Positions 40,338 through 42,576 of a stretch of DNA of 64,000 bases are shown one piece after another. The stretch's first letter is position 1. Each line of letters starts with the position of its first letter. Both the position numbers and the translations under genes were made by a program. The notes beneath the pieces were generated by a model. It searched no databases and had not been told where the DNA came from. It saw only the letters and a list, made by a program, of their open reading frames with translations. Source of the stretch: Flavobacteriales bacterium BRH_c54 (GTDB taxonomy: Bacteria > Bacteroidota > Bacteroidia > Flavobacteriales_E > Vicingaceae). The stretch lies in the NCBI GenBank assembly GCA_000961845.1, contig LADZ01000054.1:1-64000 (forward strand), in the 5' to 3' direction.

Positions 40338-40384
40338 AGCCCTGAAAGGGCTATGCCTATTTGGCGATGAATAAAGCTCATCGC
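40338..40384. repeat. two-hairpin element after nhaD
   Basis: The 250-base gap before rpsA holds hairpin AGCCCT-GAA-AGGGCT (40338-40352) and hairpin GCGATGA-ataaagc-TCATCGC (40364-40384). The AGCCCTGAAAGGGCT core is one I associate with an intergenic repeat common in Bacteroidota. It could also terminate nhaD transcription. Confidence 0.55.
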
Positions 40385-40420
40385 AAACTTTTAGATTATA
40401 CAAAATAGTAAAAAGATTAT

Positions 40421-40451
40421 TTTGATAAATAAAGAATAAAACCTACTTTTG
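40421..40451 (+). promoter_or_regulatory. rpsA promoter
   Basis: TTTG (40421-40424), 19 bases, TACTTTTG (40444-40451): an exact fit to TTTG-N19-TAnnTTTG. Transcription would start near 40457, giving a leader of about 90 bases to the preferred rpsA start. Confidence 0.75.
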
Positions 40452-40478
40452 CCCTCCTTAAAAAAGGACGGCCATTTT

Positions 40479-40530
40479 CAGCACATGGTCTTAAACAAAC
40501 CCTCTCTCATTGGTGCTGTGAAGAATGAGA
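40479..40530 (+). ncRNA. putative structured (pseudoknot-like) rpsA leader
   Basis: Two overlapping stems are possible: CAGCAC (40479-40484) with GTGCTG (40513-40518), and TCTCATT (40505-40511) with AATGAGA (40524-40530). Because the 3' half of the first stem lies in the loop of the second, together they make an H-type pseudoknot. The second stem contains an in-frame ATG at 40525, upstream of the preferred start at 40546. Translational autocontrol of S1 is a reasonable guess; no Rfam family match is claimed. Confidence 0.45.
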
Positions 40531-40545
40531 TACAAATTAAATAAA

Positions 40546-42516
40546 ATGACTGATAAAAAAAAGTCTGCCGATGAAGGCAAAGAAAAAAAAGTAGTAGCTA
40601 AAAAAACTACCACTAAAAAAACTGCTGAAACCAAAGAAAAAACGGAAGCTAAAGCCGAAAAAGCAGTTGAAGAAAAAGCAGAAACTCCTGCAAAAGAACC
40701 AGTAAAAAAAGCCGCTCCTGTTGCTAAGAAAAAAGAAGAAGTTAAGCCTCTAGCTGATTTCGATTGGGATAGAATTGGTAAATATGAAGAAACTTACTCT
40801 GCTGCTGAGAAAAAAGAATTAGAAGCTTTGTATGATGAAACTTTAAAAACTATCGGAAACGAGGAGGTTATTGAAGGTACTATCGTTGCTAAAACAAACA
40901 GAGATGTTGTTGTAAACATTGGTTTTAAATCTGAAGGGGTTATTTCTATTTCTGAATTCAGATACAACCCTGATTTAAAAGAAGGAGATAAAGTAGAAGT
41001 ATTCGTTGTAAACCAAGAAGACAAAAACGGACAACTTATTCTTTCTCATAGCAGAGCTAGAGCACTTAAAGCTTGGGATAGAGTTAACGAAGTTCTTGAA
41101 TCTCAAGAAATCGTTAAAGGTTATGTTAAATGCAGAACTAAAGGTGGTCTTATCGTTGATGTATTTGGTATCGAAGCATTCTTACCAGGTTCTCAAATTG
41201 ATGTTAAACCAGTTAGAGATTACGATATTTACGTTGATAAAATCATGGAATTCAAAGTGGTTAAAATCAACAAAGAATTTAAGAACATTGTAGTTTCTCA
41301 CAAAGCATTAATTGAAGCTGAATTAGAACAACAAAAAGTTCAAATTATTTCTAAATTAGAGAAGGGACAAGTATTAGAAGGTATTGTTAAAAACATTACT
41401 TCTTACGGTGTATTCGTTGATTTAGGTGGTGTTGATGGATTAATCCACATTACTGACCTATCTTGGGGAAGAATTAATCATCCGGAAGAAATTCTTGAAC
41501 TAGATCAAAAAATAAATGTTGTTATCCTTGATTTTGATGATGACAAAAAACGTATCGCTCTTGGTGTGAAACAATTACACGAGCACCCATGGGATAAGTT
41601 AGATGCTAACCTATCTGTTGGTGACACTGTTAAAGGAAAAGTTGTTGTTGTTGCCGATTACGGTGCTTTCATTGAAGTAATTCCAGGTGTTGAAGGTTTA
41701 ATTCACGTTTCAGAAATTACTTGGAGTAACCACTTAAAACCAGCTCAAGAATTCTTTAAAGTTGGTCAAGAAGTAGAAGCACAAGTATTAACATTAGACA
41801 GAGAAGAAAGAAAAATGTCTCTAGGTGTTAAACAATTAACTTCAGATCCTTGGGAAGATATCGAAACTAAATACAGTGTAGAATCTAAACACAAAGGAAA
41901 AGTTTCAAATATTTCTGACTTTGGTGTTTTTGTTGAATTAGAATCTGGTGTTGATGGATTAATCCACATCTCAGACTTATCATGGTCTAAGAAAATTAAT
42001 CACCCTTCTGAAATAACAAAACTAGGTGACGAAATTGAAGTAGTTATCTTAGAAATTGACAGAGAAAACAGAAGATTAAGCTTAGGACACAAACAATTAG
42101 AAGAAAATCCATGGGATGTATTCGAAACTGTTTTTGAAGTAGGCTCAACTCACGAAGGAACTGTTACTGAAATCACTCCTAAAGGCTTATACATTGTTTC
42201 TTTACAGTATGGTGTTGAAGGAATCGTTACTAAGAAAAATGCTGAAAAAGAAGACGGTTCATTCTTAGCAGTTGATGAAAAAGCATCATTTGTAATTGTT
42301 GAATTCAACAAAGGAGCTAAGAAAATTGTTTTATCTCATACTCAAACTTTTAGGGAAACTGAGGATGAAGTGAAACCAAAAGCTAAAGGAAAAGCAAAAT
42401 CTTCTTCTAACAGTGCAGTGAAAAAAGTAAATGATAACATCGAAAAAACTACATTAGGTGATTTAGATGCTCTTTCTAACTTAAAAGCTGATTTAGAAAA
42501 AGAAGAGAAAAAATAA
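40546..42516 (+). CDS. rpsA: 30S ribosomal protein S1
   Basis: A 656-residue S1 protein that binds mRNA and helps initiation. A Lys/Ala/Glu-rich N-terminal extension (~1-65) precedes six S1 RNA-binding repeats; typical units are GIVKNITSYGVFVDLGGVDG, GKVVVVADYGAFIEVIPGVE and GKVSNISDFGVFVELESGVD, each with a following LIHI/LIHVS segment. The charged Lys/Ser-rich tail is also usual in Bacteroidota. I prefer the ATG at 40546 (AATTAAATAAAATG context, MTDKKKSADEG) over the in-frame ATG at 40525, which lies in a predicted stem. A strong terminator follows 24 bases after the stop. Confidence 0.95.
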   Translation: MTDKKKSADEGKEKKVVAKKTTTKKTAETKEKTEAKAEKAVEEKAETPAKEPVKKAAPVAKKKEEVKPLADFDWDRIGKYEETYSAAEKKELEALYDETLKTIGNEEVIEGTIVAKTNRDVVVNIGFKSEGVISISEFRYNPDLKEGDKVEVFVVNQEDKNGQLILSHSRARALKAWDRVNEVLESQEIVKGYVKCRTKGGLIVDVFGIEAFLPGSQIDVKPVRDYDIYVDKIMEFKVVKINKEFKNIVVSHKALIEAELEQQKVQIISKLEKGQVLEGIVKNITSYGVFVDLGGVDGLIHITDLSWGRINHPEEILELDQKINVVILDFDDDKKRIALGVKQLHEHPWDKLDANLSVGDTVKGKVVVVADYGAFIEVIPGVEGLIHVSEITWSNHLKPAQEFFKVGQEVEAQVLTLDREERKMSLGVKQLTSDPWEDIETKYSVESKHKGKVSNISDFGVFVELESGVDGLIHISDLSWSKKINHPSEITKLGDEIEVVILEIDRENRRLSLGHKQLEENPWDVFETVFEVGSTHEGTVTEITPKGLYIVSLQYGVEGIVTKKNAEKEDGSFLAVDEKASFVIVEFNKGAKKIVLSHTQTFRETEDEVKPKAKGKAKSSSNSAVKKVNDNIEKTTLGDLDALSNLKADLEKEEKK

Positions 42517-42540
42517 TTTTTCTTTTTTAAAACAATAGTA

Positions 42541-42576
42541 AAAACTGCCTTGATGAATTTCAAGGCAGTTTTTTTT
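42541..42576 (+). terminator. strong hairpin terminator after rpsA
   Basis: Perfect 12-base arms AAAACTGCCTTG and CAAGGCAGTTTT with an 8-base loop, followed by TTTT. Confidence 0.92.

Follow-up and report, generated by a model that had tools for sequence, protein, structure and literature searches.

The gene rpsA, which encodes ribosomal protein S1, is preceded in the window (the whole stretch of 64,000 nucleotides analysed here) by interlocking complementary sequences. Do these form a conserved RNA structure, and could S1 control its own production through it? An earlier note had described two perfect stems, of 6 and 7 pairs, interlocked as an H-type pseudoknot before rpsA, and both are exact in the window sequence: CAGCAC (40479-484) pairs with GTGCTG (40513-518), and TCTCATT (40505-511) with AATGAGA (40524-530). 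A third helix, which the note had missed, is formed by GGCCAT (40470-475) and ATGGTC (40485-490). Since CAGCAC sits in the loop of this helix, the first stem of the note is a loop-loop (kissing) helix between two hairpins. The hairpins are named P1 and P3, P3 being the second stem of the note, and the kissing helix joining their loops is named P2. The hallmark of an H-type pseudoknot, a loop of one stem pairing outside it, is found for P2 with P3 and also for P1 with P2. The gap between P2 and P1 is 0 nt and that between P3 and P2 is 1 nt; judging by this pairing and spacing, P1, P2, and P3 could be stacked on one another as a single compact body. The features of the locus are as follows.

40422..40424, + strand: TTG, -33 element of a Bacteroidetes-type promoter (sequence; spacer to the -7 element 19 nt).
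40444..40451, + strand: TACTTTTG, -7 element (TAnnTTTG; sequence).
40470..40475, + strand: GGCCAU, 5' strand of P1 (sequence, nested fold, anchored fit; P1 also tested blind).
40479..40484, + strand: CAGCAC, 5' strand of the kissing helix P2, within the P1 loop (sequence, anchored fit, blind test).
40485..40490, + strand: AUGGUC, 3' strand of P1 (sequence, nested fold, anchored fit).
40491..40504, + strand: linker UUAAACAAACCCUC, A-rich and conserved in part, its last letter before P3 a conserved C (65/67 supported leaders).
40505..40511, + strand: UCUCAUU, 5' strand of P3 (P3 cells 100% paired, 25 leaders).
40513..40518, + strand: GUGCUG, 3' strand of P2, within the P3 loop (P2 cells 86.9% paired, 25 leaders).
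40524..40530, + strand: AAUGAGA, 3' strand of P3, containing a non-conserved in-frame ATG at 40525 (sequence, anchored fit, alignment).
40530..40535, + strand: AUACAA, a conserved motif at nt -16 to -11 relative to the AUG, the first A being the closing base of P3.
40546..42516, + strand: rpsA, ribosomal protein S1, start 40546 (NCBIfam NF004953, E 1.5e-264; start chosen from conservation).
42540..42576, + strand: terminator-like hairpin and T run after rpsA (14-pair inverted repeat, program-listed on the - strand; T run on the + strand too).

The exact promoter match claimed in the earlier note holds for the Bacteroidetes type (TTG, 19 nt, TACTTTTG), whereas a sigma-70 promoter scan gave none at the rpsA leader. 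In the window 18 nt separate the -7 element from P1; the supported leaders with a measurable distance number 63, and in every one of them this element precedes P1. TAnnTTTG occurs at a suitable distance in 177 of 215 distinct rpsA leaders. The transcript probably carries rpsA alone. The gene is flanked by nhaD upstream and pyrR downstream in the window; elsewhere the neighbours vary while the leader is kept, nhaD being near 2 and pyrR near 7 of 29 positive loci. An attenuator was considered and rejected, as no terminator-like site is listed on the + strand between the promoter and the AUG. AGGAG does not occur between P3 and the AUG in the window, so that the leader is without a Shine-Dalgarno sequence, as in the gammaproteobacterial rpsA operator.

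The note had also suggested that the second stem hides an alternative start, the ATG at 40525. This ATG does lie inside P3 and in frame in the window, and it is in frame in the nearest relatives (L003, L099, L100), but as a start it is not conserved even in the genus: the corresponding ATG is out of frame or runs into a stop in L002 and in L107, L108, and L110 of the same genus, and most other leaders form P3 from sequences without an ATG. The alternative start was rejected on these grounds, and it is very improbable that P3 serves to hide it. Comparison of the leaders instead places the rpsA start at 40546 and marks the ATG at 40525 as a by-product of P3 pairing.

To judge the fold beyond the window, rpsA leaders were drawn from 80 named loci, from the window's family (46 genomes), and from its class (149 genomes); an order-level genome search gave the same 46 genomes as the family-level search. 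The first extraction yielded leaders from 203 of 241 loci, and 19 of 26 failed loci were added later, the other 7 having no ATG. Removal of duplicates left 196 distinct leaders, later 215.

The nested minimum-energy fold of the window leader holds the P1 hairpin and P3 and leaves the AUG unpaired. Its folding energy is ordinary (z 0.47); this nested fold is not unusually stable, and the signal lies in pseudoknot topology and conservation. When two stems were sought without constraint and ranked on energy only, the signal was weak, with 22 of 196 leaders better than all of their 40 shuffles. The reason is that P1 with P2, rather than P2 with P3, often scores best, and adding the third helix and an AUACAA anchor resolved it. 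In a three-helix search blind to motifs, 63 of 196 leaders reached a summed stacking energy of -30 kcal/mol or lower, as against 9.5 expected from dinucleotide shuffles. P3 ended at UACA in 71 leaders, something the search had not sought; AUACAA is held by 80 of the 196. The anchored test used 79 of these 80, with 200 dinucleotide shuffles each. The window leader (L095) beat 200 of 200, 51 of the 79 beat all of theirs, and 67 passed at the 5% level; among the 12 that failed are lineages in which P1 or P2 is weak or absent (for example L156, L167, L180).

The kissing helix and P1 were each tested blind. Fits of P1 and P3 that ignored P2 were obtained for 76 of the 79 leaders (72 distinct), and the loops of the same leader then paired at a mean of -9.64, compared with -4.30 for loops swapped between leaders; 38 of 51 divergent leaders reached -8 or better, as did 8.0% of swaps. 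Likewise, the arms of P1 paired at -8.23 within their own leader and at -4.48 when swapped (70 distinct leaders). The close spacing seen in the window recurs, with a P2-P1 gap of 0-1 nt in 69% of supported leaders (19% in shuffles) and a P3-P2 gap of 0-2 nt in 69% (30% in shuffles).

The check proposed in the note was covariation in the rpsA leaders of relatives, whose absence would have spoken against the knot. Covariation is strong. The family alignment holds 25 of 29 leaders (L100, L106, L108, and L110 were near-identical, and L088 was outside the anchored set), and it was made from sequence only (MAFFT), with the structure taken from the window alone. Changes on both sides are found in 18 of 19 window-derived pairs. 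Overall, 84.4% of structure cells pair, as against 71.4% in shuffles and 34-50% when the structure is slid along the alignment. Per helix, the paired cells amount to 100% for P3, 86.9% for P2, and 63.3% for P1, the last being low partly because MAFFT misaligns P1. RNAalifold run on alignment A1 recovered P3 alone, which is what a nested-only program should give. Chance complementarity without function, for which the nested z-score of 0.47 could be cited, is excluded by the anchored test, the blind tests of P2 and P1, and the covariation across families, and its probability is practically nil. A covarying fold before the gene, the conserved structure looked for in an autogenous ribosomal-protein leader, is thus present at rpsA.

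Certain letters are conserved along with the fold. AUACAA occurs in 83 of 215 leaders (12.9 expected), and its end lies 9-15 nt from the AUG in 59 of 67 supported leaders. A U pairs with its first A in 66 of the 67, and a C stands directly before P3 in 65. The linker of supported leaders is A-rich and often reads (U)GUUUAAC. The related UGUYUAAC, found in 44 of 215 leaders (1.0 expected), belongs in many leaders with the knot to the linker between P1 and P3; its presence also in short knotless leaders of Bacteroidales suggests that it may be an older element. These Bacteroidales leaders (L007, L013, L043, L073, and L114 among them) share an AUAAUGUCUAACUUAYUAAUU-like sequence.

How specific is the structure to rpsA, and how far does it spread? 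A covariance model, R1, built from P1 and P3 only, found a single match at E<0.01 in each of 41 family genomes out of 46, always immediately in front of rpsA. Four of the remaining five have no full-length or N-terminal rpsA in the assembly, and in the fifth (L088) the three helices, missed by R1, are visible by eye. Within the family genomes, to which this result applies, the element is found with its own gene and not elsewhere. Class-wide R1 is weak: outside the family it matched 10 of 149 class genomes at E<=1. Of four weak or off-contig matches, three look like chance and one (G109 C182) resembles the beginning of an rpsA gene that is divided over two contigs. Because R1 fits the window's family closely and picks up few members elsewhere in the class, spread was judged from the leaders instead. 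Among the usable leaders of the class sample, 41 of 114 are supported by one of two tests, as are 21 of 53 families, counting that of the window; these counts take in two 0-of-200 results without AUACAA that look spurious (L219, L025), and family f57 is probably there by chance. In five families (f4, f16, f29, f30, f35) the three helices occur but AUACAA does not. The carriers with names among the leaders that pass a test include Fluviicola chungangensis (L080), a Crocinitomicaceae bacterium (L069), and several assemblies named as Flavobacteriia, Bacteroidia, or Bacteroidales (L026, L036, L055, L060, L065, L074, L076); by eye, the leader of Acidiluteibacter ferrifornacis (L005) matches that of L089, itself among those that pass. 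Across Bacteroidia, then, rpsA is preceded by one and the same knot of three helices, built from differing sequences, and many Bacteroidia rpsA genes are without it.

Other types of rpsA leader were seen as well. In families f2, f37, and f38 (L125, L138, L147, L175, L221, L222, L224, L226, L231) the leaders are short, often with a small hairpin, and end in a Shine-Dalgarno-like AAAGGAG before the AUG, reminiscent of rpsU control, even though such sequences reportedly go unused by Bacteroidia ribosomes. Outside the class, in the same phylum (f67 and f69; L261-L268, L271, L273, L275-L278, L280), another H-type pseudoknot stands before rpsA: the loop CUCUC of a covarying 7-pair hairpin pairs with GAGAG, followed by purine-rich AAGGAA and the AUG. 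In this comparison set 12 of 18 leaders were used, five near-identical ones and one with an unsure start being left out. Five of the seven hairpin pairs change on both sides among the 12; CUCUC and GAGAG are invariant, so the second stem is without covariation support. Four of these loci were scanned with Rfam, and no match lies over the leader. At L116:1191-1276 there is a Flavo-1 RNA (RF01705, 73.3 bits, above the gathering score), with about 100 nt between it and the rpsA leader that follows.

These observations establish the RNA structure and tie it to rpsA, and what it is for may be approached from the ribosome. Bacteroidia ribosomes hide their anti-Shine-Dalgarno (PMC9976891). Modelling has placed domain 4 of bS1 close to mRNA nt -12 to -15, and in F. 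johnsoniae initiation is helped by adenines at -12 and -13 (PMC6847099). AUACAA, at -16 to -11 in the window, adjoins this modelled position. S1 binds H-type pseudoknots, from a SELEX ligand through natural mRNAs (PMC7708055, PMC10931766), and represses its own mRNA in gammaproteobacteria (PMC10931766). A conserved fold beside the presumed S1-mRNA contact thus probably lets S1 control its own production, and we put the probability that the leader is an autogenous operator for S1 at about 70%, the S1 binding and the direction of control being predicted. The mechanism could be the following. The leader folds into hairpins P1 and P3, with loops joined by P2 and a body ending at AUACAA (nt -16 to -11). 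Bacteroidia ribosomes, generally without Shine-Dalgarno pairing, probably rely on 30S-bound S1 touching the mRNA near -12 to -15. When S1 is scarce, 30S-bound S1 would grip AUACAA and the leader, and initiation would follow. When S1 is in excess, free S1 would cover the pseudoknot and AUACAA, docking of the 30S subunit would be blocked, and translation of rpsA would fall.

The main rival, which we consider unlikely, is a constitutive translation enhancer or standby site, in which the folded body helps 30S-bound S1 to dock and raises rpsA translation with no feedback. The unpaired AUG of the window fold would suit it, as would the precedent of tisB mRNA, which needs a 5' pseudoknot for S1-dependent standby (PMC7708055), but it leaves unexplained why, among many highly translated genes, only rpsA has the element in the family genomes. 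Less likely still is a leader that senses a ligand other than S1, be it another ribosomal protein, an assembly factor, or a small molecule: the conserved letters around P3 would suit any specific binder, yet in the window rpsA is served by a promoter and a terminator of its own, its neighbours differ elsewhere, and S1 is known to bind pseudoknots (PMC7708055). Returning to the autogenous operator, a wider form of it seems possible to us, at somewhat less than even odds. The leaders would then belong to one RNA family that spans the class, and S1 would gauge its own abundance by means of a double pseudoknot with kissing loops. This knot would display UACAA (-15 to -11), copying the site at which S1 docks on mRNA, and would be nature's equivalent of the S1 pseudoknots obtained by SELEX. 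If the rpsA leaders outside the class have related S1 pseudoknots, regulation of S1 through pseudoknots would extend to all Bacteroidota.

The gammaproteobacterial rpsA operator is a specific hairpin fold around the AUG (a detail from E. coli), of a topology that probably differs from that of the window leader. The two share the gene, the lack of a Shine-Dalgarno sequence, and a probable competition of free with 30S-bound S1 (PMC10931766); the available part of that source describes no pseudoknot, whereas in the window three interlocked helices precede a start that is left unpaired. The S1-binding pseudoknots (SELEX ligand, rpsO mRNA, tisB mRNA, tmRNA, preQ1) are alike in being pseudoknots bound by S1 (PMC7708055). 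Unlike the window leader, they are not operators for S1 itself; the leader adds a third helix and kissing geometry, its S1 binding being putative. In the autoregulation of rpsU (bS21) in Flavobacteriales a ribosomal protein also controls its own start on ribosomes that hide the anti-Shine-Dalgarno; it works through a Shine-Dalgarno sequence and not an RNA fold (PMC9976891). Published leaders of Bacteroidetes and Flavobacteria (S4, S15, S16, L13, L19) are likewise structured ribosomal-protein leaders of the same phylum, but none is for S1, and rpsA, bS1, and pseudoknot are absent from the text (PMC7247131).

With Rfam 15 there is no match in the window at gathering scores and none over 40380-40620 at E<=1, and none of 28 related loci has a hit over its leader that reaches the gathering score of a family; weak sub-threshold matches (enteric sRNA and amino-acid leader models) overlap that of L119. 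No description of such an rpsA leader was found in the full texts searched, most subscription papers and supplements lying outside this scope. The words rpsA and bS1 are absent from a 2020 survey of ribosomal leaders, and rpsA from a 2010 survey of 104 motifs. By these searches the ribosomal-leader family and its architecture are new; autogenous ribosomal-protein leaders are already known as a kind.

For F. johnsoniae there are published purified bS1, ribosomes, and gfp reporters (PMC9976891), so the operator idea can be tested. If it is true, kissing loops between neighbouring hairpins would be added to the architectures of ribosomal-protein autoregulation. Bacteroidia choose their starts mostly without Shine-Dalgarno pairing, S1 being the suspected substitute, and a conserved rpsA leader ending at the presumed S1 contact would offer a natural, mutable S1-RNA interface in Bacteroidia ribosomes.
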